From Trifolium pratense (Eukaryota; Streptophyta; Magnoliopsida; Fabales; Fabaceae): DNA of 64,000 nt. The notes beneath the pieces are model-generated. The model saw nothing but the letters and a program-made list of their open reading frames with translations. It was not told where the DNA came from and made no database searches. This document shows, piece by piece, positions 1-33,980 of this stretch. The stretch lies in assembly GCF_020283565.1 (NCBI RefSeq), contig NC_060061.1, forward strand, positions 24,899,362 through 24,963,361. The letters are read 5' to 3'. The translations under genes were made by a program, and so were the position numbers. The first letter of the stretch is position 1. Every line of letters starts with the position of its first letter.

Positions 1-296
1 ACATCTTCATCATCTTTCAACTCTTTCCACTCGTATTTCCGTGGTGCATCATCATATCCTCCAACATGGTCAGCTGCCAGATCGATGTATGACTCAGAAT
101 ACGCTAGTTTATCTATTTTGATTTGTCTGGCGTATTTGAAGCGATACATGACTTCAATCGTATTTTTGATAGATTGAAGAGTTGTTAATGTGTTTTTCAA
201 ATCAACGCAGAACAACTCGTCGTTACCGTGAAACTTGATTGAAAATGCATAAGAAGTCGCTAAATTGTTTTTAACAAACCGGTTTGAAGTACTCAT
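1..296 (-). CDS. small MULE-encoded ORF, PB1/ubiquitin-like fold suspected (partial)
   Basis: The reading frame opens with ATG at 296 on the minus strand (MSTS...) and runs off the left edge of the window after about 98 codons. It is nearly identical to the 121-residue ORF at 22460-22825 in copy 2. The family is known to me only as a small protein that accompanies this MULE type. Its alternating hydrophobic pattern and acidic end (KDDEDV near the edge) recall the PB1-like modules found at the N-terminus of some MULE transposases, but that is inference. It shows no stop or frameshift in the visible part. Confidence 0.55.
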   Translation of the reverse strand, partial: MSTSNRFVKNNLATSYAFSIKFHGNDELFCVDLKNTLTTLQSIKNTIEVMYRFKYARQIKIDKLAYSESYIDLAADHVGGYDDAPRKYEWKELKDDED

Positions 297-1035
297 TTTG
301 TAAAATACGATTTCAATTATTTTCTAACTATCCATATACGTATTTATAATACCTATAAATCAATAATAGCCATAAAAAAAAAGTCGGTGCAATATCGACC
401 ACAAAATATTGTCGGTGCAATATCGATCACAAAAATCTGTCGATGCATTTTTGCATTTGCATTAATGACCCCAATTTCATATAATGCCTACCTTTCTTCA
501 ATCCCCCCATCAAGTCTTTTATACCCCCTACCTACATGTATTTCTTTCGATAACTTATTTCGATTTGCAGAAACCGAAAAACATGCTTCGATTGATAAAG
601 CCCGAAATTACTGGTATATTTCGGTTTATAAAGCTCGAAATAGCTGTAAACAAGGTCAGGTTATGCAGAATCACTTGCAGAACCACCTCAGAATCGTCGA
701 GGTCAAAACCTGTTTTTTTCTTTCCATTCATTTCCAAAATTATATTAAGCTTATTACAATGTTATTACAATATGTTACAACATTTCATAACCAAAGTTTC
801 ATAACCATATTTCATAACAATAATACCAAAGTTCATTTACAATAATACCACATTTCATAACCAAAGTTCATGAGTAAATTACATAACCAATGTTAATATG
901 TTACAACGCATAATCGGCATGGTATATATATCAAAAAGTAATGCGCTTAGCTACCTTTTCAAAAAATATTGCGCTTATCTACCCTTTCAAAAAATAATGC
1001 GCTTAACTAATTCAAAATGTAACTACTAAAATCAA
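297..1035. repeat. non-coding interior of MULE copy 1 with TIR-like and short tandem repeats
   Basis: No gene is visible. Around 385-440 there are copies of a short unit containing GTCGGTGCAATATCGA. Bases about 484-530 repeat the internal TIR-like block also seen at 23050-23098 (CCTACCTTTCTTCAATCC, then a C-rich and TATACCCCC segment), followed by motifs of the type CCGAAATTACTGG and TTCGGTTTATAAAG. Open frames here are short and do not match any family I know. Confidence 0.7.
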
Positions 1036-4000
1036 CTACAATTCGAGCGGATCGTCTTTGCTACCCTTTCCAATCGTGGCTAAGTCGTTGCCTGCTCTTT
1101 CAATGGTCAAGAGCTCACCAAACTTTTGCATTCTATCCAAAAACATGGGCTCTCATGTAGCAACTTCTTCAGAACAATAGTTTTTCCACTGATGAGCCGT
1201 TGGAGGTATCAGACATCCTTCTTTCAACCGCACTAACACAAAGTGGTCAGCGAGCGCGCCGATGCAAATAATCTTGGAATCCAAGTCTAATGTGTCTGAT
1301 GGAGGTTTGCCACGCAATGGAAAACAAGTTCTAGATGCTCCACACCTTTCCATATTTGTCAGTTGAAGAACGACCCTTTGAAAATGAGTAGCCACAACGT
1401 AACCCGTATCCGGAAAATTAAACCATTTGTCCTTTAGTGCAAAAGCATGTTTACTCCTTCTCGGAGGTGGGAAAAGTGCATCCGTGACATACTTGTAACG
1501 CTCATCAGTATCGAATAACTCCATACATGATTCCTTATGCAATCTCAGCTCCCTCTCCATGTTCAGTCTGATCAACTCAAAATCTTGCTGAGTTCCTTTT
1601 TGGTGCAAAGCTACCACACGGTATCCACAATAACCGTCGCCATCAACATCAATAATATCTTTGATAAATGGGTGCATGAACTTCGACATATGGTTGATAA
1701 AAGGAATTTCAGGAGGAGTTAGAGTCAAAGTACCGATGACGAGTTCTTTAGTCACCTCAGACACTGTTTGTGAAGTCGACGGCTTTGACTTTGTTGGTTT
1801 CGACTGAGATGCCTGTGTAGCTGCAATATGATCATCAACATGCTCCCACCGAGAATTTTCCCTGCTCGTGGATCTCGTGGATCTAGTGGCAACCCGTAGG
1901 TCCTTCTCATAACACAACCACACTTTTTGCTATCCATACCACATTCGTCGACCCTTTTTGCTTCGGAATAAATGTGATCCATAGCCTTTCTAGAGATTTT
2001 ATAAAACAAGTATGCGTAAAGAGGATCATCGTCGTATCTGTGTTCCGCAACAGACATACTCCGACCGAATTCACCTTGTACTTCGGTGAACTGACTTATC
2101 AACATCTTATTTATCGCTTCCCAACCTTTCACCAAGTCACCGTTACCATCCTTCAAGTAACCTTTCAACACACCATGAGATGATTCAGCTCTATTCGTGG
2201 TGTGATTCCCCATGTGCATATGTTGGTCTACCCAAGCATTGAACACCCTTTCTTTATCAGTGTCTAGGACAGTCTCTTCAACATACCGCAAAAACTTTGG
2301 CCACCTCGCACAAAGCTCCCTAAACTCCATAACATTGTTAGCATATTCTGTCTCCGTGGGCGACTCTAACACATTCTTAAAAGCATCGGTGATTCGATCC
2401 CACACATCAGTCTGCTTCTCATTCTCTCCATTCTTGATTTTCACAATTTCCTTCATCTTAGAGCTCACATTCTTTTTTACATGAAAACGACAAACCATTG
2501 CAGCCGATGTTGGAAATACCTCGGCAACTGCATTCATCAGAGCCAAATCCCTATCAGTGACAATCACCTTCGGTCTAACGTCCTCATTCCTTAAAAGACT
2601 GACACATTGCTCTAGAGCCCAAGTGAAGTTCTCTTCTTTTTCATTGGTAAGCCAAGCAAATCCTGTTGGTGTAAGCCCTAGAGGCCAATAATTTATGTTA
2701 AACTTATGCTATGTATCATGACATTTATTATTAAATAATGTATGTCATTCTTTATTATAATTGTTGTAAAGATTAATAAAGTCCCTAGAATAGATAGTTC
2801 ATGTGATGAAACATTAAGTGAGACTTAATCGTGAGATTGCATTAACTTAAAGAACACTATTCTTAAAAGTATCCGTAGTCAAGCTTTAATATGAAGTGGG
2901 ATAATAATAAAGCGTAGAGACTATTATGTATAGACTGATGACCACATCTCAAGGGTCATGAATATGAGATATTAAGTCTATACATAAGTATAAATATTAG
3001 GAGTAATATTTATATTGGATTGACCCACCATGAGAGTACTACATAGTATGTTATGAAAGTGTCATAAGATACTCTCATAGTGATAATAGTGTATATCACT
3101 CTTAGATCTGAAACCACTATGATCTCTAGATGTGGACTTAAATGTTTTATTGCCGTTCAAATATCTGTAACAGGATAATTATAACGTCAGTTAATGGGCA
3201 TTTGACGAACCATGCTGAGGGACATGAGTGTCTTAGATGAGATTTGTCCCTCCTGCATAACGGGAGATATATCTTTAGGCCTCTTGATGAACATGACTGA
3301 AAAATTGCATGGCCATGCCGAATTAAGTCAATATGAGATATTGGACTTATTCGTTACTCAGTATGCTTCGGGATCAAGAAATACAAATATTGAACTATAC
3401 AAGGATGACACTATCTATGTCTTGTGTCCAATAAAGATATGAGGACAAAGGAGTAATTGTACACATATATATTATCATGGAAATGTTTCGTAAGATCACC
3501 TGACATTCTTGTCACTTGGGTAGCAGTGATGTATTGCTAGATACCGCTCACTGTTTATAATATTAAAATAGGATTTAATATTATTGCCAACGTGACAAGA
3601 TCCTATAGGGTCGCACACAAATGAACAGTCATAAGGATAAACATAAGTAAGACTTATGAATAGGGTGCAATTAGTAAAAATTGCTAATTAGTTGGCAAAA
3701 GGTTAATGGGCTTAAGGAAGTCCACTATCACTTGACTTGGAGAGCATACAAAGAGGTTATATAAATAGAACCCTTGTGCCATAGTCAGAAACACTTTTTG
3801 GTTTTTGAGAAAAACAAAAGAGCACTCTCTTCTCTCTAACCTCTGATTACTTGGCTAGTATCGGGTACCGGAGGAGAACCGTTCGGTGTGGACGAGTAGA
3901 GGCTTTGCTAGGTTGCTCAGCTTGTGATCGAAACTTCTCTTCCATTACTTGTAAGGTAACAACACTATCACTGATTCATTGCTCTTCGTAATGATCCAAG

Positions 4001-4911
4001 GAAAGGAAATCAGATTTTTTTTTTAAATTCCGCTGCTTCTGATATATCGATTTCCCTTCAAATCTAACATTGAATGTCTTCCCAGTTGAAGTGAACCCGA
4101 CAATCTCAAGTAACAGCATTTTGTATTTGTTTGTTTTGTATGTCGAATCCATCAAAAGCACAGTAGAAAAAGAATTGAACAAGCTTATAGATCTAGGATG
4201 TGCAAAGAAAATGTCTTGAACATGTTCGGATCCGTCTGCAACAATCGTTCTATGTTTGAAATAATACCCGTTCTCGTCAAGTCTTTTGGAGAGGTGTTGC
4301 ATTTCAGTCATTGATGCCCTCATTTTAAGTTTTAATCGATGACTTAAATTGTAGAGTTGCTTTGCCGTTGTCTTGTTGTTTGGATCCCTCTCTTTCAATG
4401 TGGACATTATATTCTTAAGCGGAACCAAATTCCTTGACATTTCCTCCATACACTGCCTTTCTTCCGGTTTGAGACGACCGACAATGAGATGACCTTCAAC
4501 TACCTTGTCCAACTCGTGGTTATGTTTGCCGTTTACAATGGTCAAATGCCATGTTTTATCGGCATGATAATAAGCACGAAGTCGAAATGGACAGCCGCAT
4601 TTCCTCGTGCCGGTTTGATCAAATTTTAGCTTCTTATTTGTTGACACGTATCGGCCTCCCCGCTCGCAATCCAACCTGAAATACTGCTTCCTCATATCGC
4701 TGCCGTTGTCGGATTTGCCAATTACAATTGCAAACTTTAACTTTAAGGCAATGGCCCGAGCCCATCTAATCAACTCATCTCGGTCGGTGGTTGCCATATT
4801 AGTGTAAAAATGAGCCGATGTATCAATCTTATATGCAACAGGTTTATCAGGCGGAACCTCAACAATTCCCGGGGCACAGATACCTAGCACAACCTCTCGT
4901 TTTCCCGCCAT
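1036..4911 (-). pseudogene. MULE transposase-OTU gene, broken copy
   Basis: The order on the minus strand is the start (MAGKRE at 4911), the FAR1-like zinc region and first catalytic Asp of the transposase down to 4061, a solo LTR (2664-4060), then the rest of the transposase from 2663. At about 1880-1890 the frame jumps from the SWIM motif straight into the OTU region. This reflects loss of the segment equivalent to about 24428-24875 of copy 2, with a small duplicated filler (GTGGATCT twice). A TGA replaces the Trp codon of copy 2 near 1153, truncating the OTU end. The OTU Cys motif GDGYC is still readable. The original stop lies at 1036-1038. Confidence 0.9.
2664..4060 (+). mobile_element. 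solo LTR (1397 bp, Copia-like) inserted in the MULE transposase
   Basis: The insert begins TGTTGG and ends TTCA, and it is flanked by 5-bp duplications AATCC (2659-2663) and AATCT (4061-4065). Removing it restores collinearity with copy 2. No gag or pol frame is present; the 76-codon frame at 3212-3442 is not a recognisable protein. The right end contains the phrase ATTCCGCTGC typical of the 3' part of many plant Copia LTRs. The orientation is inferred from that phrase. A solo LTR implies insertion of a full element followed by LTR-LTR recombination. Confidence 0.85.
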
Positions 4912-5599
4912 AACTACATAATATAAGAGGGATAAACACATAATTAGCCACATATAATACATATAGTACTAATGTAATATTACTTAATACATATATAATT
5001 TGTAGCACATTCTATAATCCATAACTAAGGCAATGCAAGCAAAACAGACAACACAAGTAAAGACAGTGCAGATATGATGGGAAAAATTAAACTTCCAGGA
5101 ATTTCGGTTAGTATCAATCGAACGAATACTTCGGTTAGGCAAGGCAAGCAAACACAGTTAAACCAACACAAAATCAAAAGTTCCAGGAACTTCGATTCGT
5201 ATTCACCGAAGGATTATTTCGATTTCTATCAACCGAACGATTATGTGTCAGAAAACCTACGAAACTAGCATATATGACAGTTAAAATAAACGAAATTAAA
5301 CGGAAGATTACCTTAATATTGTGCTTCAAATCGCCTTCCAACCCTTAGCATACGTTCCAAACTTGATTTCAAGCCACGAATTGAGTGAAAAACTGATTGG
5401 ATTTTCGGATCACTTTTGGTAGTATGGGGATGAAGTATTGAAAGTGATGAAGAATGTGAGAGGTTGTTGTCTATATAGACACACTTCGATTGATAGAGCC
5501 CAAAGAAATAAGCGAGTGGTTTTTAAAACTCGAATTTTTCATTAATTCGATTCGTAAAACCCGAATTTGCTAACCGAAAATTTTGACATTTTGGAAGGG

Positions 5600-5656
5600 C
5601 AAACTGAGATTTAAGGGGGTATAAAAGAAATGTGGGGGGCCTAAAGAGAAAATATC
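5600..5656 (-). repeat. right terminal inverted repeat of MULE copy 1
   Basis: Read inward from 5656 it shows GATATTTTCTCT, then a C-run, a TTTATACCCCC block and TTTGCCCTTCC. It matches the ends of the intact element at 18309 and 27225. A-rich and CGAA/TTCGG-containing subterminal repeats continue inward to about 5090. Confidence 0.88.
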
Positions 5657-11707: not shown

Positions 11708-12882
11708 GGGTAAATAGGGTTTTACCCCCCTGCAAAATAAGTCAATTTTGCATTACCCCCTGCAAAAAAAAAACTTGGGATTATCCCCCTGCAATATGAA
11801 GATTCTCTCTTTTTACCCCCTGCTTGACAACTTGGCATAGAATCTTTATTTTTTATGAGGTGGCATGCATATGTGGCATTTATTTCATTTTTATTTTTTT
11901 AATTTGCACATGTCATTTTTATTATTAAATAAATTGGTGACAAATATTTAAAAATTCCACTTAATTAGTTTTTAAAAAAATAAAAAATATTGTGTCAAAA
12001 AAAAAATTATTAAAAATAAAATATGTTAATTCAAAAAGATATGTTAATCCATTGTTTCTAACGCAAAAAAAAAAAAAAAAAAACTCAGAATCTTTTCCTG
12101 TAACATAACACAAATCTTTCTCCTTCTCATTCTTCTTCTCAAAACCCAAAATTATTTTTTCTCTAACACAAACTCAGAATCCCAGAATCCTTTTTATCTA
12201 AAATAAAACCTAGAAATCCGCCGAATCACTCCGCCGAATTCGTCGAAACAAATGATTGATGAAGAACAAAGGCAGGAACTAGGAACCGGATTTCGTATAA
12301 AGGCAGAAACTGGGTTTTTGAATTTATGGGTTAGGGATTGAATTGATGGGATGAAGAATTGGGAAGAAGAATTATGTTTTTGGGTTAGGAAGAAATTGGG
12401 TTGTTGCAAAGGGATGAAGGATAGAAGAACAAAAGAAATTTATGATTATGTTTCTGGGTTTACCGAGATTGATTTTTGGAAGAAAAAAAATTGGGTTCTT
12501 TTTGGATTGTTGTTCTTGGTGGTGTTGATGATTTTGTTGATGTTGTTGTTGTTCTTGGTGGTGTTGATGTTGTTGTTCTTGTTGAATTATGAAAGTTATC
12601 GTAGTAGGGATGAAGGGGAAATTAGAAAAGAATTTATTATTATTTTTTTAATTTTTAGTTTATTTAATAATAAAAATGACATGTGCAAATTTAAAAAAAT
12701 AAAAAATAAATAAATGCCACATATGCATGCCACCTCATAAAAAATAAAGATTCTATGCCAAGTTGTCAAGCAAGGGGTAAAAAGAGAGAATCTTCATATT
12801 GCAGGGGGTAATCCCAAGTTTTTTTTTTGCAGGGGGTAATACAAAATTGGCTTATTTTGCAGGGGTAAAACCCTATTTATCC
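11708..12882. mobile_element. long-TIR MULE, 1175 bp
   Basis: Terminal inverted repeats of about 240 bp start GGRTAAATAGGGTTTTACCC and contain three GGGGGTAA/TTACCCCC blocks. Identical 9-bp duplications TAAAATCTA flank the element (11699-11707, 12883-12891), diagnostic of Mutator-type insertion. The centre (about 12110-12640) is less AT-rich and has short open frames on both strands, the larger at 12351-12713 ending in a Leu/Val-rich run. They match no family I know. The centre could be a captured host fragment, as in Pack-MULEs, but I cannot name a donor. Confidence 0.88.
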
Positions 12883-15859: not shown

Positions 15860-16307
15860 TTGAAGATCTACGCCCTCAGATTTTCTTTTAACTTAATCAG
15901 GCACCATGTTTGGTTACTCATGTTAGACTTAGAGTACATTTTGTGTTGACATGCTTATTCTGTAAAGTTGGGGATGAAAGATAGCTAAATATATTTTATG
16001 TTCTGAGGTACCATTATTTATCATGTCTGGAAATGCTTTATACTACATAAAAGTCTCTATTTGCTTAGAGTTTTTGTTACAACTATTCCACATGCTCAAG
16101 TTCTACCAAGTCTTAGGTCGTGGTCTACATCTTTTGTTTTTTGGTTGTTGCTGTGGGATCTAATGAATTTTTTCAGATCATAAACTTGCTTTGAGAGTGA
16201 ATAAAGTCAATATACTATAGTATTCTTCATTAAATCATTACTTAAAGTTATGATAATAATTAATAGAAATAATAGTAATTAGTCTTGCATCACAACTGTA
16301 CAAGACT
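15860..16307. other. 3' region of the ERD2-like gene and convergent 3' flank of the PKS pseudogene
   Basis: No further gene. Bases about 16105-16245 recur at about 30590-30715 (shared phrase TTTTGTTTTTTGGTTGTTGC), so this non-coding flank was part of the duplicated block. Confidence 0.7.
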
Positions 16308-17319
16308 TCATGCACACAGGTTCCTTGCTAGAATCCCCTCAAAAGTAATTCCAGTTCCAAAACCAAGTATCATCCCCATTTAGAATCTCCTCCACTTGCC
16401 TTTCTAATCTTCTTGCCCTCTTCTAGCATATACTCCAGCACATAAACAATAGTGTTGCTGCTAGCATTTCCATAATCCATTAGAGCTTTTCTACTAGCAT
16501 TCAACTTCCCCGGTGACAACTCAAGCCGCTTCTCCACACGATTCAATATTGCAGGCTCGCCTAGATGCACGGCACAAAATAACTTATTGTACTTCTTATT
16601 CTACAACCCAAAAACATCAATTAGTTTATCACAGAATCCCTCAACATTGTCTTTGATTATCTGTGGAGGTTCCCTTGCTAGCATGAAACTTATGCCCTCA
16701 TCTGTCAGCTTCCCATCAATTTTCTTCTGTGTCTGGTATAAACTCCTGAGCTGAAGTATGAAGCTTAAACAACATTGTTTCAGTTTCAAGTATCGGGTTT
16801 GAGCCAATTATCATAGTATCAGCACCATCTCCAAAGGTGCCACACCAACAAGATCATAAGGACTATCAACACTTGGTGGCTTGAATCCAATAATCGTAGT
16901 TTTAGAAGTAGCAAGCAAAACTCTATTTCCAGGGTTGTTCTCAGCTATGTCTTTTGCAACACGAAGGCCAGCTACACCTCCCGAGCATCCAGCGAAATAG
17001 AACATTGTTCTATGAATTTTTGGATTTAGTCCTGTCCTAGTCCTTTTGATAAGTATAGGTCGCTGCGGGGTAATCTAGCTTCACTAGATGAAACTTAAAC
17101 CACATGATGAGTTATGTCTGATAAGGGTCTGCCCCAATTCTTTAGGCAAACTTGGGAAGCTTCAATAGCCATTTGTGATGTGTTACTGCCTTGCTACATA
17201 TCTCTAAACGTTGTTTTACAGTTGAAGGCTCGAAGCGCCTTCAACGACAAGTTCTTAATACTTCCTTAGTATCTCCTCATTCATAACAACATACCTTGTT
17301 TTTACTGTGGTTGTCTTGC
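16308..17319 (-). pseudogene. type III polyketide synthase (LAP5/PKSB-like) pseudogene, exon 2 only
   Basis: The whole second exon of the gene at 30792-32692 is recognisable, from the intron acceptor at 17320-17322 to the stop equivalent at 16308. The active-site block YFAGCSGGVAGL survives, but the frame breaks repeatedly: after DLVGVAP near 16840, before the QKKIDGKLT segment near 16740, and at the stop codon before NKKYNKLF. The catalytic-His motif WAVHPGG has become CAVHLGE. Intron-like sequence continues rightwards to about 18010 and matches 31800-32430, but no exon 1 follows. This is a genomic duplicate that has died, not a retrocopy. Confidence 0.93.
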
Positions 17320-18242
17320 CTGTTTATACTACATGAAGCCAAATTAAAATGTGGTAATTTAATTTAATAGTGACATAAATGTAACCTATCAACAGTTAGT
17401 TTTATGATAGAGAATATCTGGTAAATGCAACTTTGTTTGAAGAGTAATTAAACTTAATTTAGTAGCTCTTTTATATTATCTTTATTTGGAAATAGAACTT
17501 CATAGTGAGAAGTTATAACAATTTGGTAATTGGTACCTCTTTAGTTTTTCTTATTCGAAAGGATACTATATTTTGCCAAAGTTATGTAAAAATAGCAATT
17601 TTTTGATCTAACGTGGTATCTTATTTTGTCAAAAGTTATGTCCAAATAGTCCTCTCTGTACCACAATTCAAATGAAAAGGACCACATTTGTATAATTTTC
17701 AAAACAATATACTATTTCCGACCAAAAATAAAAGATTAAAATGTAACAATGAAAGTGAAACTACACTGCAACTCCACGGATAAGTCTAGTTATGTACAAG
17801 GCATCATAGTATTTGGTCACCATATTTGGTCACACGTAAAAATAAATATCATTTAATTATTCAAAAAATGTATTATTTAATTAGTTTTTTTTTCTTCTAC
17901 TTTTTATTAAACATACGCGTGTGACTAAATGGATTGATCAAATTATTGTGTCGATTCAAAATTTCCTCTTAAAAGTAGAATAAATAAAGTTTCGAAAAAT
18001 GTCAAAGAAACAAAGTTGTTGATTTTTTAAACAAAATTATGATTTTTATTTGAGTGATAACTTTTAAAGTATTGATTGACTACACAACTTTTAATGTTAT
18101 GCATTTTCCTTTTCATTTTTATAAAATATGAGAAGGGTAAAGTAAAGATTTATACAACAACGTGCAGTTAAGAAAACCAGTGAGGGGGGGTATGAAAATA
18201 TTATTTTTACTGCATATACTGTACCATGTGACTAATATAGAA
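17320..18242. other. duplicated PKS intron sequence and AT-rich flank
   Basis: To about 18010 the sequence parallels the intron of the functional PKS (phrases such as CCTCTCTGTACCACAATTCAAATG). Beyond that I see no gene. Confidence 0.7.
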
Positions 18243-18299: not shown

Positions 18300-18308
18300 A
18301 AGAAAAAT
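18300..18308 (+). repeat. 9-bp target-site duplication, left
   Basis: AAGAAAAAT, identical to 27226-27234. Length and position define a Mutator-type insertion. Confidence 0.95.
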
Positions 18309-18375
18309 GATATTTTCTCTTTAGGCCCCCCACGTTTCTTTTATACCCCCCTTACTTACGTTTTTGCCCCTGCAC
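18309..18375 (+). repeat. left terminal inverted repeat of the MULE
   Basis: GATATTTTCTCT is followed by CCCCCCACGTTTCTTTTATA, a C run and TTTTTGCCCC. It is inverted with respect to 27160-27225. Subterminal motifs TTCGGGTTATACGAATCGAA and AATTCGGTTAATAGAAATCG follow inward. Confidence 0.9.
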
Positions 18376-18992
18376 GGTGTTTCGGGTTATACGAATCGAA
18401 CTTTAAAACAATTCGGTTAATAGAAATCGATCGCGTTTAACTTCGAGTTTTGTCAACCGAAGTTAACTGATATAGAAACAGAAGCATTTCATAACCTCTC
18501 AGTTACGTATTTTCTTCTAAACACCAACAACACCACTCCTTCTTCTTCTTGAGAGCGATTTTGTGGAAAACTTCAACATCCTATCTCAAACCATTCTTAA
18601 TCAAGTAAGTTCCATGCATTTACATTCACTCTTTTCTCATTCCATGTTTTTCTTATCACATTCACTCTTTTCTACGTTTTTTTTCCCTCCCTGAGTAATT
18701 TTCTATCTCAAAATTCTATGTTTGAATTGTTGAATTAATGATTAGTTGTTAGTTTAGTTAGATGTTAACATGAATGCATGTGATATTAGGTTCAATTTGT
18801 GTATGTCATTAGTTGGTATTATGGTCTACACTACGTGTTCGACAAAATGTCTAAGTCAAATTAAATGTGTTTCCATACGAATAATGTTTCCATAGGTGTT
18901 AGCATTAAACGTTGATTGAATTATAGTTTGAATTTATCATAGTTTATAAGATTGTATTGAGTTTGACGATATGTTTCCATGTTAGGATAAAT

Positions 18993-21151
18993 ATGGAAGA
19001 AAATGTTGGGAGAGGTAGGCATGGCAAGCCAAGCAATGCAAATGCTTCCGCTCGTAGAGAGCTTGCTGCAAATCGCCCTGCCAAACGAGGTCGTAGTAAG
19101 CAGCAAGGACCAATTCCCGCGCGAGGGACACATGATGCTGAGGCGGGTGGTTCGCGTACGCGTACACGGTCACGTTTAGGCCAAGCACAAAATGCTGCTG
19201 AGGATGATGATTTTGACGCGGATCAATTTCTAAATCAGGATGCCGAGTATGGCGAACCTGAAGAACCGCAACCTGATGAACTGCAACCTGATGAACCGCA
19301 AATTGAAGAACCGCAACAACCACCACGACGGAGACCGCAACAGCGACCACGGCAACCACGACGAGATGCAGCAAATGAGGGTTATGGAGGAGGACCAAGT
19401 GATATGTCATTATTAACACAATACGGAAATCATAGGGCGGTTCCGATATGGGATGCAGAACCAGATGATCACGAGGTACCGTTAAGTGTATTAATTGTTT
19501 TATTAAATGTATTAATTGTTTTAAATACTGTGATTATGTTAATTAAGTTTTCAATGTTTTGTGTTGTTGGAATTTTTCAGGTTTTAAAGAGGACTCTGCG
19601 TTGCCAAGCTAGCGGGAAAAAGGTTATGGACATCGTCAAACCGCCTCGTAGTGAGAGGTGGTTTTGGGATCCAATAGAAGCATCGGGATTGGAGCCGCTT
19701 ACCCGTGTCAATTTTAGCGTACTTGACTATGGGGTTATATGGGCATTTGTTGAAAGATGGCATCCGGAAACAAGTACTTTCCACCTTCCGTTAGGTGAGC
19801 TCGGCATCACATTGGACGATGTACAATGTCTGTTACATCTTCCAATCCAAGGAAAGTTTTTGAACCATACGAAGATGTCAAGGGGAGAAGGGGCTGACAT
19901 GGTTAGTTCATATCTAGGAGTTGAGCGAGAGGATATTGATAAAGCATTTGCCGAAACCAACGGGGTACATTTGAAGCATACTACCCTGCAAACTCTATAC
20001 ACAACAAACCAGACGTCTGCTGAAAGAGCGATTGCTGAAAATAAGCCGGCGCATGTTGTTAGGCTTTACAGGGAGAGGAGCGTAAGGGCTTTTATGCTAC
20101 ATTTGGTCTGTTGTACAATATTCAGCAACAAGAGCAGTTACTACGCGGATGTTGTGTATTTGCAGTACTTTCAAGATTTGTCATGCGTTCATGAATGGAA
20201 TTGGGGTGCTGCTGCTCTTGTTCATCTGCAGCATTATTTGGATCACGGATCTGCGGTTAGCACGACTCAGATGGCTGGCTACATGTCATTTCTTCAGGTA
20301 AAAATATCTGAGCGTTATATAAGATATTATTTGTATTTGTCTAATTTGTCACATAGACTATGTTTGGCTATAATGAATCTTGTTCGTCATACTTTCAGGG
20401 ATGGATTATTGCGCACTTTCCGAGACTTAGTGTGTGGGTGGAGGCTCCTAGATATACAGCGAACATGCCACTAAATTCAAAGGTTGTTCCTGGGCAAGGA
20501 CATAAGGATGCAGCTGGATATAGAAGCAGTTTGGACAATATTCAAACTTACGATTGCGTGTTCAGCCCGTATGATGCCCACCGACAAGTGCGACCTTTGA
20601 TAAATGCATGTTGGTTTTCTGGATGGTTAAGGTGTGGTAAATTGAAAGCCAAGCATTTGCCGGAACGTGTGCTAAGACAATTTCAACATGTGCAAGGCAT
20701 TCCAAGAAACCCGAGTATGTCTGCAACGCCGGGGATGAACTTGTGTGAGATAGATCGTGTGTTTACGGAAGAATTGGAGCTGAGAATGATAGATGAAGAG
20801 ATGAGGGGTCGGCCTGTTACAAGCCCGTGGGACACTGAACCCGGATATATGTCATGGTTTTATAGAGTGTCGCATCCAGTTATGCGACCCGTAGAAGCTC
20901 CTGAATCACCACCAAGGCCACCTAATTTAGAGGTGTTAATAGAGGCGGCGGAAGCAAGAAATGACCCTAATCTAATGCAAGTTTGCCGGAGTGTAAAGGT
21001 TGAGGTCGAAAGGGCAGTTCGCGATGGTGAGGCGGTTGAAGGAACTCCAATTCATGGTACTTTGCAGCGGATTCTGAATTTGCTTAATCCGATACTTGCT
21101 TATAGGCGAATTAAGCGGGGGAAGGGGACACGCTACCACACTCGGGGGTAG
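18993..21151 (+). CDS. plant mobile domain (PMD/MAIN-like) protein carried by the MULE
   Basis: Three exons (18993-19475, 19581-20297, 20399-21151) give 650 residues. The 105-bp first intron would also read through in frame, but it has a clean GTACCG...TTTTTCAG boundary and codes for a hydrophobic run alien to the family. Residues about 1-70 are basic and Ser/Arg-rich, 72-125 are Glu/Pro/Gln-rich repeats (EPQPDELQPDEPQ), and about 165-490 form the PMD: RWFWDPIEASGLEPL, FVERWHPETSTFHLP, GELGITLDDVQCLLHLPI, and CWFSGWLRCG with LPERVLRQF. PMD proteins include host regulators MAIN/MAIL1 (genome stability, silencing) and many transposon-borne relatives, often labelled protein phosphatase 7 long form homologs. 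No phosphatase domain is present. A 5' UTR intron (about 18606-18984) is likely. The ATG follows it closely. Confidence 0.88.
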
Positions 21152-21589
21152 ACTTTGTTTGTTTTTGTAACTTTAATGTTGACGTGGTTGTTTATAAACT
21201 CTGATGTTTGTTTTTATTTTTGATGTAACTTTGATTATGACAATCGGATGTAGTACACTACGTATTTTAGTATCGTTTAATTCGTAATTTGTTACCGGTT
21301 GTTACGTTTTTTATTAATCGCTAAAATATTTTTAGATTGGATGGTTAATATGTTGATGCTCTGTCATATATAACATACTAAAATGTGTTATAAACAGGTT
21401 TGGACCTCAAATGTGTAGAGGTTGTGCAAGGCAAAGACTCACATTGACTGGTTTTTTGGCCTGATATACTTCGGTTTATACGGCCCGAAATTGTTTAAAT
21501 TCCCAGTAATTTCGGTTTGTATCAATCGAAACTTATGTTTCGGTTTCTGCGGGTCGAAATAAGTTATATTTTGCGAAATTCATGTGTAT

Positions 21590-21645
21590 AGGGGGTATAA
21601 AAGACATGATGGGGGGGATTGAAGAATGGTATGATTGAAGAAAGG
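21590..21645 (-). repeat. internal TIR-like block facing left
   Basis: On the minus strand it reads CCTACCTTTCTTCAAT..., then a C run, ATCATGTCTTTTATACC and a C run, followed inward (leftward) by TTTCGACCCGCAGAAACC and CCGAAATTACTGG. It is the mirror image of 23050-23098 and resembles the element's own ends. With 18309 it brackets the PMD gene. Confidence 0.8.
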
Positions 21646-21784
21646 TAGGATTTAACTCGATATTAAAGTTGTTTCGATTGAACTCTAATATTGAAACGAA
21701 CTTTAATACTAAAACGAAATTAGACAAATCAAACACAATAAACGGAAATTAGGAATTACATCGGAATGAAATTGTTACAACGCA

Positions 21785-22177
21785 TCAAATGGAAACATGA
21801 TTTCGATCTTCCGGACGAACAAGGCTAGCAAGGATGGCTTCGACAGATCTTGTCAGCGTTGCATCTAATTCGATAGGCCCCCTGTTGCTATACTGCTCGA
21901 AAATTGAGAACATAGTTTCAATATCATCATTGTTTTCAAGCATCATATCGGTGAAGGAAATGCGTCCGTCGGGACCGATCGACGGTTTACGGTACTTGAG
22001 ACTCGAAACTGTTCTGTTATCGTTCTGGTTGTTGGTGGTACGATTCAGCTCGTTCAGTTGTTGTTTCAGACCATCGAACGTTTCACCATCGTTAATGCGA
22101 AACAAAATTGGTTTTTCGTGGTTGAAGTAAACTGCTGCAAGGGTAGATCTCATGCGTTGTGTGAGTGAGACATCCAT
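21785..22177 (-). CDS. small MULE-encoded ORF, 130 residues, function unknown
   Basis: It starts with ATG at 22177 (MDVSLTQR) and ends at 21785. Features: FNHEKPILFRINDGETFDGL near residues 18-37, an Asn-rich linker (TTNNQNDN), LKYRKPSIGPDGRISFTDM and a C-terminal acidic/hydrophobic helix region (about 75-120). I do not recognise an established domain; the first half resembles the ubiquitin-like beta-grasp start seen in PB1 modules, with low confidence. It is convergent with the PMD gene and lies in tandem with the ORF at 22460-22825, which shares its strand. No signal peptide or membrane segment. Confidence 0.6.
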   Translation of the reverse strand: MDVSLTQRMRSTLAAVYFNHEKPILFRINDGETFDGLKQQLNELNRTTNNQNDNRTVSSLKYRKPSIGPDGRISFTDMMLENNDDIETMFSIFEQYSNRGPIELDATLTRSVEAILASLVRPEDRNHVSI

Positions 22178-22252
22178 TTTTTTGTGAGTTGAGTGTTGAA
22201 AAAAGATGTGGTAATGTACATTAATTTATAGATCATATTGTTGCACATTATT

Positions 22253-22328
22253 GTGGTAGGTGATGGTTAATGTGGTAGGTGATGGTTAATGTGGTAGGTG
22301 AAGTTTAAATGGTAGGTGATGGTTATTG
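22253..22328 (+). repeat. 19-bp tandem repeat
   Basis: About four units of GTGGTAGGTGATGGTTAAT; the first two are exact, the later ones vary. It lies between the two small ORFs, in the presumed promoter of the 21785-22177 ORF. Confidence 0.9.
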
Positions 22329-22459
22329 TTGCACATATTGATTAATTAAAAAACTTACAACTTACATTGTTAATTCAAACATTCATTAACTGAAAATTAC
22401 GTAACATAATATAAAATTCAACAACAACATAAACGGAAAATCAAAACATAAACGGAAAA

Positions 22460-22825
22460 TCAACAACATAAGGTAGCATACAAACGTGGATATTTCGGAT
22501 CAATTTCAATCCAGTCGAACATTTTTCTCACATCTTCATCATCTTTCAACTCTTTCCATTCGTATTTCCGTGGTGCATCATCATATCCTCCAACATGGTC
22601 AGCTGCCAGATCGATATATGACTCATAATACTCTAGTTTGTCTATTTTGATTTGTCTAGCGTATTTGAAGCGATACATGGCTTCAATCGTATTTTTGATA
22701 GTTTGAAGAGTTGTTAAAGTGTTTTTCAAATCAACGCAGAACAACTCGTCGTTACCGCGAAACTTGATTGAAAATGGATAAGAAGTCGCTAAATTGTTTT
22801 TAACAAAACGTTTTGAAGTACTCAT
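22460..22825 (-). CDS. small MULE-encoded ORF, PB1/ubiquitin-like fold suspected
   Basis: Its 121 residues begin MSTSKRFVKNN at 22825 and end LYATLCC. Copy 1 has the same ORF at 1-296 with few substitutions, mostly conservative, suggesting it is a real component of the element. Notable parts: FSIKFRGNDELFCVDL (beta-hairpin-like), an amphipathic helix with YRFKYARQIKI, and the acidic KDDEDVRKMFDWIEID, which recalls PB1-type acidic motifs. A beta-grasp assignment is inference. No other partner is evident apart from the neighbouring small ORF. Confidence 0.62.
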   Translation of the reverse strand: MSTSKRFVKNNLATSYPFSIKFRGNDELFCVDLKNTLTTLQTIKNTIEAMYRFKYARQIKIDKLEYYESYIDLAADHVGGYDDAPRKYEWKELKDDEDVRKMFDWIEIDPKYPRLYATLCC

Positions 22826-22904
22826 TTTGTAGAAAACGATTTCAATTATTTTCTAACTCTCCCTATACGTATTTATAGTACATAGAAATCAATAATATCC
22901 ACAT

Positions 22905-23030
22905 ATATTGTCGGTGCAATATTGACCACGAATATCGACCACAAATATCGACCACGAAAATATTGTCGGTGCAATATCGACCACAAAATATTGTCGGTAC
23001 AATATCGACCACAAAAACTTGTCGGTGCAA
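22905..23030 (+). repeat. tandem GTCGGTGCAATATCGACCAC repeats
   Basis: Four to five imperfect copies of a roughly 25-35-bp unit lie just upstream (minus-strand sense) of the 22460-22825 ORF. Copy 1 has fewer units (385-440). Confidence 0.85.
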
Positions 23031-23049
23031 TTTCGATCATTTTTCACAT

Positions 23050-23098
23050 AATACCTACCTTTCTTCAATCCCCCCCATCAAGTCTCTTATACCCCCTT
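23050..23098 (+). repeat. internal TIR-like block facing right
   Basis: CCTACCTTTCTTCAATCC, a C run, ATCAAGTCTCTTATACC and a C run, then TTTCGACTCGCAGAAACC and CCGAAATTACTGG inward (rightward). With the end at 27225 it brackets the transposase-OTU gene. The same block exists in copy 1 at about 484-530. Confidence 0.82.
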
Positions 23099-23580
23099 CG
23101 CAAAATTTAAATTTCTTTCGACTCGCAGAAACCGAAACATAGTTTTCGATTAATATAAACCGAAATTACTGGAACATTTCGGTTTATAAAGATCGAATTA
23201 TGCAGAAACAAGGCCAGGTTATGCAGAATCACTTGCAGAACCACCTCAAAATCGTCGAGGTCAAAACCTGTTTTTTCTTTCAATTCATTTCCAAAATTCT
23301 ATCAGGCTAAATACAATTTGTTACAACATTTCATAACCAAAGTTTCATAATCATATTTCATAACAATAATACCAAAGTTCAATATACAATAATACCACAT
23401 TTCATAACCAAGGTTCATGTGTAAATTGCGCATACAAAGTTAATATGTTACAAAGCATAATCGGCATGGTATACATCACAAAATAATGCGCTTAGCTACC
23501 CTTTCAAAAAATAGTGCGCTTAGCTACCATTTCAAAAAATAATGCGCTTAGCTAATTCAAAATGAAACTACTAAAATCTA

Positions 23581-26505
23581 CTACAATTCCAACGGATCGT
23601 CTTTGCTACCCTTTCCAATCGTGACTAAGTCATCGCCTGCTCTTTCAATGGTCAACAGCTCACCAAACTTTTGCATTCTATCCAAAAACATGGGCTCCCA
23701 ATCTGCAGCTTCTTCGGAACAAGAGTTTTTCCACTGATGAGCCGTTGGAGGTATCGGACATCCTACTTTCAATCGCACTAACACAAAGTGGTCAGCGAGC
23801 GCGCCGATGCAAATAATCTTGGAATCCAAGTCTGACGTGTCTGATGGAGGTTTGCCACGCAATGGGAAACAAGTTCTAGATGCTCCACACTTTTCCATAT
23901 TTGATAGTTGAACAACAACCCTCTGAAAATGAGTAGCCACAACGTAACCCATATCCGGAAAAGTAAACCATTTGTCCTTGGTTGCAATAGCATGTTTACT
24001 CCTTCTCGGTGGTGGGAAAAGTGCATCCGTGACATACTTGTAACGCTCAGTATCGAACAACTCCACATATGATTCCTTATGCAATCTCAGCTCCCTCTCC
24101 ATGTTCAGTCTGATCAACTCATAATCTTGTTGATTTTCTTTTTGGTGCAAAGCTACCACACGGTATCCACAATAACCGTCACCTTGAACGTCAATAATAT
24201 CTTCAATAAATGGGTGCATGAACTTCGGCATATGGTTGATAAAAGGAATTTCAGGAGGTGCTGGAGGTGCTGGAGTCAAAGTACGGATGACGAGTTCTTT
24301 AGGCACCTCAGGCACTGTTTGTGAAGTCGACGGCTTTGACTTTGTTGCTTGCGACTGAGATGCCTGTGTAGCTGCAATATGATCATCAACATGCTCCCAC
24401 CGAGACTTATCCCTGCTCGTGGATCTTGTGACACGAACTGATTTTTTCTTTCTAGCACCTTTTGTTTTGGCCTTTTGAAGCGGAGGTTTCACAGAGGTGG
24501 TTTCTGGATATGCAATGAGACGAAGTTGATTCCTAATATCATTCTTCACGCTAACATCGGCTGTTTTTAATCGTTCCTACAAAGAAATAAAAAAAATCAA
24601 ACTCATTAAAATTAATTGTATACAAAGTGTAACATTATACACATAATGTAAAATTAAAATCATAATAAAAAGGTATACGAAATGTAACCATTATATTTAT
24701 GAATGTGTAATAACCTGAATTGCTTTCCACTCAGCCAAGCAATCATAATCGTCAGCCACGTCGCCCGGTGCCGGCTCATCTTCGAAACACAGTTTCTTCC
24801 ATTGAGGATGAATCTCATCCAGTCGGATAGGTTTGTTATTTTTTATCTTCTTCGCAATCAAGCATGCACATGGCAACCCGTATGTCCTTCTCATAACACA
24901 GCCACACTTTTTGCTATCCATACCACATTCTTCGACCCTGTTTGCTTCGTCATAAATGTGATCCATAGCCTTTCTTGAGATTTTATAAAACAAGAATGCG
25001 TAAAGAGGATCATCATCGTATCTGTGTTCCGCAACAGACATACTCCGACCGAATTCACCTTGTACTTCAGTGAACTGACTTATCAACATCTTATTTATCG
25101 CTTCCCATCCTTTCACCAAGTCACCGTTACCGTCCTTCAAGTAACCTTTCAACACACCATGACATGATTCAGCTCTATTCGTGGTGTGATTCCCCATGTG
25201 CATATGTTGGTCTACCCAAGCATTGACAACCCTTTCTTTATCAGTGTCTAGGACAGTCTCTTCAACATAACGCAAAAACTTTGGCCATCTCGCACAGAGC
25301 TCCCTAAACACCATAACATTGTCAGCATATTCTTTTTCCGTTGGCGACTCTAACACATCATTAAAAGCATCGGTGATTTGATCCCACACATCAGTCTGCT
25401 TCTCATTCTCTCCATTCTTGATTTTCACAATTTCCTTCATCTTAGAGCTCACGTTCTTTTTTACATGGAAACGACAAACCATTGCAGCCGATGTTGGAAA
25501 TACCTCGGAAACTGCATTCATCAGAGCCAAATCCCTATCGGTGACAATCACCTTCGGTCTAACATCCTCATTCCTTAAGAGACTGACACACTGCTCTAGA
25601 GCCCAAGTGAAGTTGTCTTCTCTTTCATTGGTAAGCCAAGCAAATCCAACATTGAAAGATCTCCCAGTTGATGTGAATCCGACAATCTCAAATAACGGCA
25701 TTTTGTATTTGTTTGTTTTGTATGTCGAATCCATCAAAAGCACAGTAGGAAAAGAATTGAACAAACTTATAGATTTAGGATGTGCAAAGAAAATGTCTTG
25801 AACGTGTTCGGATCCGTCTGCAACAACCGTCCTATGTTTGAAAAAATACCCGGTCTCGACAAGTCTTTTGGAGAGGTGTTGCATTTCAGTCATTGATGCC
25901 CTCATTTTAAGTTTTAATCGATGACTTAAATTGTAGAGTTGCTTTGCCGTTGTCTTGTTGTTTGGATCCCTATCTTTCAATGTGGACATTATATTCTTAG
26001 GCGGAACCAAATTCCTTGACATTTCCTCCATACATTGCCTTTCTTCCGGTTTGAGACGACCGACAATGAGATGACCTTCAACTGCCTTGTCCAACTCGTG
26101 GTTATGTTTGCCATTTACAACGGTCAAATGCCATGTTTTATCGGCATGACAATAACCACGGAGTCGAAATGGACAGCCGCATTTCCTCGTGCCGGTTTGA
26201 TCAGATTTTAGCTTCTTATTTGTTGACACGTACCGGCCTCCCCGCTCGCAATCCAACCTGAAATATTGCTTCCTCTTATCGCTGCCGTTGTCGGATTTGC
26301 CAATTACAATTGCAAACTTTAGCTTTAAGGCAATCTCCCGAGCCCATCTAATCAACTCATCTCGGTCAGGGGTTGCCATTTCAGTGTAAAAATGATCTGA
26401 TGTATCAATCTCATATGCAACAGGTCTAGATGGAGGTTTATCAGGCGGAACCTCAACAATTCCCGGGGCACAGATACCTAGCACAAGCTCTCGTTTGCCC
26501 GCCAT
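23581..26505 (-). CDS. MULE transposase with FAR1-like and SWIM zinc regions fused to an OTU cysteine-protease domain
   Basis: Two exons (26505-24715 and 24576-23581, intron 24577-24714) join in phase 0 to 928 residues. The start MAGKRE follows a TGTAG acceptor-like site, so a 5' UTR intron from about 26880 is likely. Residues 45-140 are a FAR1-type zinc region (CGCPFRLR, NGKHNHEL). The catalytic core has Asp259 (LLMDSTYK), Asp323 (VIVTDRDL) with a CRFH motif, and Glu446 (NRAESCHG). A SWIM-like CxC...CxC motif is at 534-548, then a basic Ser/Thr-rich linker. The OTU domain has Asp731-Gly-Tyr-Cys733 (GDGYCGYR) and His860 (ADHFVLV), consistent with a deubiquitinase-type active site. The transposase would cut and move the element; the OTU role is unknown. 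The frame is fully open, unlike copy 1. Confidence 0.9.
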
Positions 26506-27159
26506 AACTACATAATATAAGAGGGATAAACGCATAATTAGCCACATATAATACTTAATACATATAAAATTGGTAGCACATTCTATAATCCATAACAGCT
26601 AAGGCAATGCAAGCAAAACAGACAGTCAAGGCAAATAATTTTACATTGCAAAAATTAAAGTTCCAGTTATTTCGGTTAGTATCAACCGAAAGAATCCTTC
26701 GGTTAGGCTTGGCAAGCAAACACGTTTAAACCAACACAAAACCAAAAGTTCCAGTCCCTTCGATTCGTATTAACCGAAGGATTCCTTCGATTTCTATAAA
26801 TCGAACGATTTTGTGTCAGAAACCTACCAACCTAACATGTATGACAGTTGAAAATAAAAGAAATTAAACGGAAGATTACCTTAATATTGTGCTTCAAATC
26901 GCCTTCCAACCCTTAGCAAACGTTCCAAACTTGATTTTAAGCAGCGATTTGAGTGAAAAACGGATTGGATTTTGGGATCTCTTTTGGTAGTGTGGGGATG
27001 AAGTATTGAAAGTGATGAAGAATGTGAGAGGTTGCTTTCTATATAAACATACTTCGATTCGTAAAACTCGAAGTACAAAGCGAGTGGTTTTTAAAAACCG
27101 AAGTTTTTATTTTTTCGATTCGTAAAACCCGAATTTGCTAACCAAAAAAGTGGTCATTT

Positions 27160-27225
27160 TCGAAGGGCAAACTGGGATTTAAGGGGGGTATAAAAGAAAC
27201 GTGGGGGGTGGGGAGAGAAAATATC
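27160..27225 (-). repeat. right terminal inverted repeat of the MULE
   Basis: Read inward from 27225: GATATTTTCTCT, a C run, ACGTTTCTTTTATA, a C run, then TTTGCCCTTCG. The subterminal region 26650-27140 carries repeated TTCGGTT, CGATTCGTAAAAC and AACCGAAG words, likely transposase-binding or promoter sites of the transposase gene. Confidence 0.9.
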
Positions 27226-27234
27226 AAGAAAAAT
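27226..27234 (+). repeat. 9-bp target-site duplication, right
   Basis: AAGAAAAAT, identical to 18300-18308. It lies 36 bp upstream of the ATG at 27271. Confidence 0.95.
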
Positions 27235-30791: not shown

Positions 30792-32692
30792 TCATGCACA
30801 TAGGTTCCTTGCTAGAATCCCCTCAAAAGTAATTCCAGGTCCAAAAGCAAGTATCAATCCCCATTCAGAATCTCCTCCACCCGCCTTTCTAATCTTCTTG
30901 TCCTCTTCTAACATATACTCCAGCACATAAACAATAGTATTGCTGCTAGCATTTCCATAATCCATTAGAGCTTTTCTACTAGCATTCAGCTTCTCCGGCG
31001 ACAACTCAAGCCGCTTCTCCACGCGGTTCAATATTGCAGGCCCACCTGGATGCACAGCCCAAAACAACTTGTTGTACTCCTTATTCTCCAACCCAACAAC
31101 ATCAATTAGTTTATCACAGAATCCCTCAACATTGTCTTCGATTATCTGAGGAAGTTCCCTTGCTAGCGTGAAACTTATGCCCTCCTCAGTCAGCTTCCCA
31201 TCAATTTTCTTCTCTGTGTCTGGTATAAACTCTTGGGCTGAAGTATGAAGCTCAAACAACGGTGTCTCAGTTTCAAACACTGGGTCTGAGCCAATTATCA
31301 TAGCACCGGCTCCATCTCCAAAGAGTGCCACACCAACAAGATCGTAAGGCCTATCAACACTTGGTGGCTTGAATCCAATAATTGTAGTTTCAGAAGTAGC
31401 AAGCAAAACTCTACATCCAGGGTTGTTCTCAGCTATGTCTTTTGCAACGCGAAGGCCAGCTACGCCTCCCGAGCATCCAGCGAAATAGAGCATAGTTCTT
31501 TGAATTTTAGGGTTTAGTCCTAGTCCTTTTGACAAATATAGGTCACCGCCGGGTAATCTAGCTTCACTAGATGAAACATAAACTACATGAGTTATGTCTG
31601 ATAAGGGTCTACCCCAATTCTTTAGGCAAACTTGGGAAGCTTCGATTGCCATTTGTGTAACTGCGTTGTTACATATCTCTAAACGTTGTGTTACAGTCGA
31701 GGCGCCTTCGACAGCAAGTTCTGGATACTTCTTTAGTATATCCCCATTCATAACAACATACCTTGTTTTTACTGTGGTTGTCTTGCCTGTTTATACCACA
31801 TGAAGCCAAATTAAAATGTGGGTCATTTAGTTGCAACATAAATGGAACCTATCAAACAGTGTTAGTTTTATAATAGAGAATATCAAAATTGATTTTGCCT
31901 TTTTATGTGTGCAGTTTAAGTAAAAGACATATATTTGGTTACAGTTTGTCAAACTTGATTTGATTAGTAGTGCAACATACTTTGAAGGCTAAGTTAAAAC
32001 TTAATTTGGTAGCTTTTCTATATATTATCTTTATTTGGAAATAAAACCTCATATTGAAAATTAATACTTTGGTACTTCTTTAATTTTTTAGTCCAAATGA
32101 TACTTTATTTTACAAAAGTTATTTAAAAATAGTAATTGTTTGCTTTAACGTGCTATCTTATCTTATTTTGTCAAAGTTATATCAAAATAGTCCTTTCTGT
32201 ACCACAATTCAAATGGTTTTAAAAACAAAATACTATTTGGTCACATTTACATAAAAATGCATATCATTTAATTATTAAAAAAAAATATATTATTTCATTA
32301 TTTTCTTTTCCTACATTCTATCAACCATATATGGTTGTGGCTAAATGGAGTGACCAAATCTATATTCATCCAAAATTTCTTAGTAAAAGGTAGGATAAAC
32401 AAAGTGTCCAAAAATCACATGTCATTGTCCATGAAACAAAGTTCTTTGTCCCCTATATATGTATGCATAAAAAAGAGAATTAAGGTGTGTATTTTACTAT
32501 ATTGTACTTACAAAGTCTAGCAAGCTTTTGTTTAAGCTCAGGATTGTCACAATTAGTGTCCCTAAAATATCCATCAACTAAATACTCTTGCATCACAAGC
32601 TGGTGAGGGAAAGCTTTGCCAAGAGCTAATATAGTAGCCTTCCCAGGGGTTGCCTGCTTTGTGACACCTCTCACTATACCTTCGTCTCCCAT
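30792..32692 (-). CDS. LAP5: anther type III polyketide synthase (LAP5/PKSB-like)
   Basis: Two exons (32692-32512, 31786-30792) join to 391 residues, and the single 725-bp intron splits a Cys codon (T|GC at Cys61), the conserved chalcone-synthase-family position. The catalytic triad is intact: Cys165 (YFAGCSGGVAG), His306 (WAVHPGGPA), Asn339 (DYGNASSN). Motifs GKAFPHQLVMQEYLVDGYF, LPGGDLYLSKGLGL and the family C-terminal GFGPG-type signature (AFGPGITFEG) are present. Sequence character fits the LAP5/PKSB clade, which condenses malonyl-CoA onto long-chain acyl-CoA to give alkylpyrones for sporopollenin in the tapetal ER, rather than true chalcone synthase. A TATA box lies 87 bp upstream of the ATG. 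It is the only functional PKS in the window; a full dead exon and several fragments surround it. Confidence 0.93.
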
Positions 32693-33340: not shown

Positions 33341-33662
33341 TATGTTGTTATGAATGAGGAGATACTAAAGAAGTATCCAGAACTTGTTGTCCAAGGCGCC
33401 CCGACTGTAAAACAGTGTCTAGAAAAGTTATGTAACAAGGTAGTAACACAAATGGCAATTGAAGTTTCCCAAGTTTGTCTAAAGAATTGGGGTAGACCCT
33501 TATCAGACATAACTCATGTGATTTATGTTTCATCTAGTGAAGCTAGATTATATATCCGGGGGTGACCTATACTTATCAAAAGGACTAGGACTAAACCCTG
33601 AAATTCAAAGAACCATACTTTATTTTGTTGGATGCTCGGGAGTTGTAGCTGGCCTTCGCATT
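33341..33662 (+). pseudogene. type III PKS fragment in inverted orientation
   Basis: The plus strand encodes the first about 107 codons of PKS exon 2: VMNEEILKKYPEL, QMAIEVSQVCLKNWGRPL, SDITHVIYVSSSEARL, then a one-base frame break near 33545-33560 (TATATCCGGGGGTGAC), GDLYLSKGLGLNPEIQR and VGCSGVVAGLRIAKD. It stops abruptly at AAAGAC and joins an oppositely oriented PKS fragment. The active-site Cys is present but the rest of the protein is missing. Confidence 0.9.
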
Positions 33663-33663
33663 G

Positions 33664-33980
33664 CGAAAGACAGCCATTTTTTGTCACTGCCTTGTTTGAT
33701 ATTTCTAGCAGATGCTTTGCAGTGGAGTGGGGATGCCTTCAACATGTTCCGGGTACTTCTTTGGTATTTCCTTAGACATAATCACATACCTTGTTTTCAT
33801 TGTGTCTAGACAGTTTTTGCAACACTGAATCCAGATTAACATTAGATCATTTACTAGTAACAAAAAAATGGAACCTATCAAGTGTGTTTGGTTTTATGAT
33901 ATGATATGTATGTAAGACATGGAAATTGGAAGCTAACAGTAATTTTACATCAAATTGCTTTTAGAGCATCAATCAAATGT
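33664..33980 (-). pseudogene. type III PKS fragment plus flank, duplicate of 30235-30560
   Basis: Bases 33664-33795 are a minus-strand PKS exon-2 start (KYPEH..., degenerate). The plus-strand continuation, containing ATTAACATTAGATCATTTACT and TGTTTGGTTTTATGATATG, matches 30400-30480. It abuts the plus-strand fragment, giving an imperfect inverted repeat of about 130 bp. Confidence 0.85.

Follow-up and report, generated by a model that had tools for sequence, protein, structure and literature searches.

Introduction

In the available part of PMC6446971, MULEs are given target site duplications of 8–11 bp, and the table there assigns an antisense PMD to most MUDR-group MULEs and to some others, with the FAR1-type row (Jittery) showing one ORF and no PMD. 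A first-pass annotation of the locus described below had called two joined MULEs, with the transposase serving a PMD-bearing partner, an unusual architecture; that table speaks against the pairing of PMD with a transposase being rare in itself. The MuDR plan, as laid out in the accessible portion of PMC3310237, consists of convergent genes driven from both ends. The same portion describes MULEs with internal terminal inverted repeats (TIRs) that lack a duplication of their own; for the most part these elements are non-autonomous and the repeats stand in tandem (48 of 61 in tomato). The host PMD proteins MAIN and MAIL1 silence transposons, and PMD proteins borne by transposable elements have been proposed to act in counter-silencing (PMC8616336, in the excerpt available).

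Here we describe a MULE of Trifolium pratense at positions 18309–27225 of the window, by which we mean the whole 64-kb stretch of DNA that was analysed. It is flanked on both sides by a perfect 9-bp duplication, AAGAAAAAT, and holds four genes, encoding a PMD protein, a FAR1-type transposase, and two small proteins (ORF A and ORF B). In our best reading, to which we give a probability of about one half, this stretch is one autonomous four-gene MULE with two nested inverted pairs of ends. Movement as one whole is the sole mode of movement that is supported here.

Extent of the element and its outer ends

The boundaries of the element are formed by the following features.

18300..18308, no strand: target site duplication, left copy, AAGAAAAAT, identical in 9 of 9 positions to 27226–27234
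27226..27234, no strand: target site duplication, right copy, AAGAAAAAT
18309..18480, forward strand: outer left end block, O-type, with the terminus, core at 18337, palindromes at 18381, 18412, and 18442, and a TATA-like box at 18469
27040..27225, reverse strand: outer right end block, O-type, with the terminus, core at 27184–27197, palindromes at 27114, 27083, and 27053, and a TATA-like box at 27039–27045

The outer TIRs at 18309 and 27225 and the perfect duplication beside them (18300–18308 and 27226–27234) had been recognized in the first-pass annotation and are confirmed, and the length of the duplication falls within the 8–11 bp range of the MULE superfamily. Read inward, both termini give GATATTTTCTC. 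The two outer blocks are 73.5% alike over 166 aligned bases and 82% alike over 62 bp without gaps, so terminal inverted repeats are indeed present. In both of them a distance of 7 bp separates the third palindrome from the TATA-like box, as if this palindrome could also govern the promoter. This outer pair would be the ends that the transposase now cuts, should the element still be mobile today. After predicted splicing the PMD and transposase frames are intact, and they are at least 99% identical to annotated T. pratense proteins over their full length.

Genes of the element

Two large genes occupy the flanks, and a spacer with two small genes and a set of repeats lies between them.

18993..21151, forward strand: PMD gene, 650 aa, with predicted introns at 19476–19580 and 20298–20398, spliced in silico; Pfam PMD
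23581..26505, reverse strand: transposase gene, 928 aa, with a FAR1/AFT-type N-terminus, a MULE domain, and an OTU-like C-terminal tail; predicted intron at 24577–24714
21785..22177, reverse strand: ORF A, 130 aa, with a predicted PB1-like fold; TATA-like box at 22224; 14 homologues
22460..22825, reverse strand: ORF B, 121 aa; TATA-like box at 22870; partly present in copy 1 (see below)
22905..23036, no strand: tandem repeats of 28 bp on the upstream side of ORF B, carrying palindromes of the form GTCG-N9-CGAC

The PMD and MULE domains named in the first-pass annotation stood up well, with Pfam scores of 99.5 bits for PMD on the first frame (cut-off 34.9) and 100.7 bits for the MULE domain PF10551 (cut-off 27.6); its OTU domain, on the other hand, has no Pfam match at E ≤ 10. 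The annotated T. pratense protein P0015 is 99.7% identical to the PMD protein of the element over 650 aa and itself reaches 140.1 bits for Pfam PMD, and P0135 is 99.1% identical to the transposase over 928 aa. Public annotation calls P0015 "MAIN-LIKE 1-like" and P0135 "PKS-NRPS hybrid synthetase cheA-like", so transposon genes pass here as host genes. Transcription of both genes would run inward, starting at the left outer end for PMD and at the right one for the transposase.

From its N-terminal domain matches, the transposase is assigned to the FAR1 type: AFT scores 38.3 bits (cut-off 21.6) and FAR1 scores 23.8 bits, which is under its cut-off of 28.1. Among the eight Pfam families that match P0135 at E ≤ 1, AFT and FAR1 are present and PF03108, which we take to be the MuDR-type N-terminal domain of the transposase, is absent. 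A scan of viral and prokaryotic contigs with P0135 returned no relative. In the C-terminal tail, a D-G-x-C motif and a later His are invariant in all eight aligned sequences, and this Cys and His presumably correspond to the OTU catalytic positions; it is on these two residues that we call the tail OTU-like. Sequence searches of the PDB, with a single sequence or a profile, found no OTU chain, and the structure model of the tail is poor (mean pLDDT 38.5).

The spacer between the inner blocks is not filler: it contains two small genes, one of which is present in three named species of clover. ORF A has a T. pratense match at 99% protein identity. Its structure model and the fold matches of that model point, among the families in the fold list, to a PB1-type ubiquitin-like fold (the Foldseek matches include unrelated beta-grasp proteins as well), and we thus model ORF A as a PB1 domain protein. 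By Pfam, which gave no match, ORF B belongs to no known family; the protein homologue searches covered ORF A, PMD, and the transposase. Having TATA-like boxes of their own, both small genes may be transcribed from their own promoters. The GTCG-N9-CGAC form in the repeats upstream of ORF B recalls the TTCG-N12-CGAA sites of the end blocks, and copy 1 has one such site at 383.

Inner end-like blocks

21470..21649, reverse strand: inner left block, I-type, with tip at 21649, core at 21591–21604, and palindromes at 21539, 21511, and 21470
23054..23215, forward strand: inner right block, I-type, with tip at 23054, core at 23083–23096 (1 mismatch), and palindromes at 23117, 23145, and 23178

Two internal TIR-like blocks, as had been proposed, are present, one at about 21470–21649 facing left and one at 23054–23215 facing right. 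They have a leader in common, CCTACCTTTCTTCAATC, that is absent from the outer ends, again as proposed, and within the leader of the inner left block lies a 16-bp tandem repeat. The inner blocks also lack a duplication of their own: around the left half, the right half, and the spacer no 9-bp duplication was found, with best matches of 6/9, 5/9, and 6/9, respectively, and 6/9 is the most frequent value for random 9-bp pairs (838 of 2000). Of the earlier picture of two TIR-flanked halves, one part holds, namely that all four blocks are end sequences related to one another, with the inner pair oriented so that each half resembles a complete unit. The other part, that the halves once were or still are independent elements, finds no support in a duplication around either half.

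These observations bear on the possibility that the locus is a full composite of two MULEs, with halves that still move independently by means of one transposase. It would explain why an end-like block stands on both sides of each half, in the correct orientation and with palindromes in register, but the inner tips read CCTACC and the outer termini GATATT, duplications around the halves are missing, and the 64-kb window holds no solo half. We consider it unlikely. Equally improbable, to our mind, is a two-unit MULE whose four ends all remain binding sites of a single transposase, so that the element could move whole or release its PMD half or its transposase half. If that were true, the PMD protein, the OTU-like tail, the PB1 protein, and the second small protein would make up a linked toolkit, a clover module for silencing escape and mobility with its palindromic targets in five non-coding places.

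One could also see the spacer and the inner blocks as a separate element that was inserted into an outer MULE, given that the inner blocks form an inverted pair around a gene-bearing spacer. We rejected this very improbable scenario: the inner tips face inward, leaving the spacer outside its own ends, and no flanking duplication is found (best 6/9). In addition, the T. repens gene model P0014 joins the end of ORF A to the C-terminus of a transposase.

Shared architecture of the end blocks

Six end blocks were compared, namely the outer left and right and the inner left and right blocks of this element and, from copy 1, its right inner and right outer blocks. The alignment of end blocks that the first-pass annotation called for gave 74.7% identity for the inner pair, 73.5% for the outer pair, and 49.1–54.2% for the nine inner-outer pairs. 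Over the 153–169 aligned bases of the latter (49–54% alike), the core and the palindromes are held in common. The local scores of inner against outer blocks are modest (z of 6.7, 5.1, 6.5, and 2.4), and the pair with z of 2.4 does not exceed the best of its 300 shuffles. Recent copying of one outer end inward was considered and is disfavoured by the 75% inner-inner likeness against 49–54% for inner-outer.

The core, TCTTTTATACCCCC, occurs six times in the 64 kb at up to two mismatches, and all six sites fall in end blocks, four in this element and two in copy 1 (chance mean 0.52; none of 100 shuffles gave six). Common to the six blocks are also three 20-bp palindromes, TTCG-N12-CGAA, placed in register and in some cases with mismatches. 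They would probably be bound by a protein of the element, most likely the transposase. The exact form, which was derived from the very sites then counted, occurs 20 times in the window (13 in 18309–27225, seven in copy 1, and none elsewhere), compared with a mean of 0.3 and a maximum of 2 in 100 random 64-kb sequences. A longer palindrome consensus (up to two mismatches) is likewise found 13 times here, seven times in copy 1, and nowhere else, with counts of 0, 1, 0, 0, 0, and 0 in six random sequences. Under a looser form (one mismatch, spacing 11–13) there is no enrichment, with 48 sites against 35–51 in ten random sequences.

It is the spacing of these parts that best argues for the inner blocks being relatives of the outer ends, and probably former ends of an element. 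The distance from tip to core is 28–29 bp in five of the six blocks and 45 bp in the inner left block, which has 16 extra bases (the repeat). Offsets of tip, core, and palindromes are 0/28/72/103/133 in the outer left end and 0/28/72/100/133 in the inner block of copy 1. The inner leader begins at the position where an outer terminus would be, and because the mutual likeness of the inner blocks ends at this terminus position, they look like former ends rather than mere arrays.

A related partial copy and other features of the window

1..5656, no strand: copy 1, which corresponds to the right-hand portion of a related element and includes a piece of ORF B, the right inner block, a broken transposase, and the right outer end

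Base 1 of copy 1 aligns to 22530, so that it starts inside the spacer, and its left side lies beyond the window. Its transposase is broken by an insertion of about 1.4 kb (2663–4059) that interrupts the domain and by the loss of about 440 bp equivalent to 24431–24870. Copy 1 had been said to contain the same inner junction. This is true of the junction's right side, with the right inner block. The claim built on it, that the composite had moved repeatedly, is overstated, as the part of copy 1 in the window is without the left inner block, the PMD gene, and the left end. Between copy 1 and 18309–27225, dS is about 0.10–0.14 in four coding pieces (pairwise, from few changes). The dN/dS values are 0.28 (ORF B, 97 codons), 0.42, 0.19, and 0.53, again pairwise, from few changes, and with one partner broken.

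Several other features share the window. At 11708–12882 lies an element of about 1.2 kb that resembles a small MULE-type element, with inverted ends 95.6% alike (229 aligned bases), a perfect 9-bp duplication, TAAAATCTA, and no long ORF. Between the two MULE copies, an open frame at 8445–9128 resembles the C-terminal part of an alkaline/neutral invertase (316 bits). A chalcone/stilbene synthase gene is found at 30795–31790 and 16108–17418 (258 and 206 bits), with a duplicated stretch (1338 columns, 88% alike); near this gene another piece, in inverted orientation, lies at 33341–33672.

A fifth palindrome array

26671..26805, reverse strand: fifth palindrome array, with sites at 26671, 26759, and 26786, within a predicted 5'UTR intron of the transposase gene

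Within 26671–26805 neither a tip nor a core was found (the core being scanned at up to two mismatches), and the array is nearest to the inner blocks (local scores 50 and 42). Arrays thus occur, or spread, also without being ends. This lends weight to a serious rival reading, possible though doubtful in our judgment, in which the locus is a two-gene MULE on the MuDR plan that never was two elements, and palindrome arrays derived from its ends were copied into non-coding places. Arrays in the 3' flanks of both genes and in the 5'UTR intron of the transposase gene would then be targets of an element protein, comparable to the VANC motifs in Arabidopsis VANDALs. All 15 palindromes with up to three mismatches in the element are non-coding and form five clusters of three, and the likeness of the intron array to the inner blocks is as this reading would have it. 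VANC21, in the accessible part of PMC5735166, is found in introns, intergenic regions, and terminal non-coding regions of its own element, and antisense PMD genes are frequent among the MULEs tabulated in PMC6446971. However, the inner blocks have a core, and a tip at the terminus position, features that a binding array could do without, and at only 49–54% likeness to either outer end they are unlike a recent copy.

Pairing of PMD and transposase in other clovers

In T. subterraneum, two of the three locus tags of related transposases adjoin PMD tags (17 TSUD PMD tags, with 120 of 167 matches listed). The neighbours are TSUD_75440 (PMD) and TSUD_75450 (transposase), and TSUD_298920 and TSUD_298910; the remaining transposase, TSUD_372900, has no adjoining PMD tag among the matches listed. 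Locus tags presumably step by 10 along this genome, and with random tag placement at least two of three were adjacent in none of 200,000 draws. The proteins of these pairs are 43–56% identical to those of the element. In T. repens, the ORF A tags QL285_082733, 088247, and 043874 have no adjoining PMD among the QL285 PMD tags listed, where several PMD rows carry no locus tag. In the P0014 fusion mentioned above, a stretch of transposase C-terminus is combined with the final 36 residues of ORF A, and ORF A thus seems to follow a transposase in T. repens too.

Judged by sequence divergence, the pairing of PMD and transposase looks old, and the end pairs (73–75% alike) look younger than the pairing (43–56% protein identity). 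Homogenization may therefore have kept the two blocks of each end pair alike, in which case the near-equal divergence of the inner and outer pairs is suggestive, not a date.

Origin of the nested ends

As the likeliest origin we propose that a pair of related units became joined tail to tail. Each unit would have had an O-type end 5' and an I-type end 3' of its gene, and the joining would have left one I-type end facing the other at the junction. The inner arrays would persist as binding or regulatory sites. Joining of units with unlike ends predicts the pattern found, in which inner resembles inner (74.7%) and outer resembles outer (73.5%) far more than inner resembles outer (49.1–54.2%). The perfect outer duplication, the intact frames, the exact palindromes, a core confined to end blocks (6/6), the like tip-core-palindrome geometry of inner and outer blocks, and the T. 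subterraneum pairing (2/3) all fit this origin. On the other side stand the missing duplications around both halves, inner-outer z values of 2.4–6.7, a fifth array without tip or core, end pairs that appear younger than the PMD-transposase pairing, and TSUD_372900, without an adjoining PMD among the matches listed. The spreading of arrays within a single MULE is kept as a serious rival to tail-to-tail joining.

Comparison with known systems

Among the papers listed by a full-text literature search, which covered few subscription journals, no title or beginning of an abstract describes a MULE with an inward-facing inner pair of ends, a MULE transposase with an OTU tail, or a stand-alone PB1 ORF in a PMD MULE. 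Within the reach of that search, several traits appear to be new in combination: inward inner ends in a coding-intact element, a PMD gene together with a transposase of the FAR1 type that ends in an OTU-like tail, and a protein with a PB1 fold. The PMD protein, the FAR1-type transposase, the PB1-fold protein, and the palindromic array are concrete parts with which counter-silencing can be tested, and the inner end pair offers a route to asking how MULEs acquire second genes.

Like the VANDALs that carry VANC motifs, the clover element is a plant MULE of several genes whose non-coding parts hold repeats of a short motif (PMC5735166 and PMC10398659, in the portions available). The motif is YAGTATTAY there and TTCG-N12-CGAA in clover, and the comparison between the two covered the placement of the arrays.

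The multiple-TIR MULEs of Ferguson and Jiang (2012; PMC3310237, in part) likewise have extra internal ends without a duplication. They are mostly tandem on both ends, and the sole transposase-like one has stops and frameshifts, whereas in the clover element the inner tips face each other and the coding regions are intact. Membership there is defined by external and internal TIRs alike over at least 100 bp; here the likeness is 49–54% over 153–169 bases.

Like the antisense-PMD MULEs (Dupeyron and others 2019; PMC6446971, in part), the element has its PMD gene antisense to a MULE transposase. It differs from the FAR1-type elements (Jittery group) tabulated there, which have one ORF and no PMD, and an inner end pair is not mentioned in the available part of that source.

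Finally, the clover element has in common with maize MuDR (mudrA, mudrB) its two main convergent genes, promoters in the ends (in clover, predicted ones), and a duplication of the 9-bp class (PMC3310237 and PMC6446971, as far as available). In clover, however, the second gene is a PMD gene and not mudrB, the N-terminus of the transposase is of the AFT/FAR1 type with no MuDR-type domain found, and two small genes and an inner pair of ends are added to the plan.
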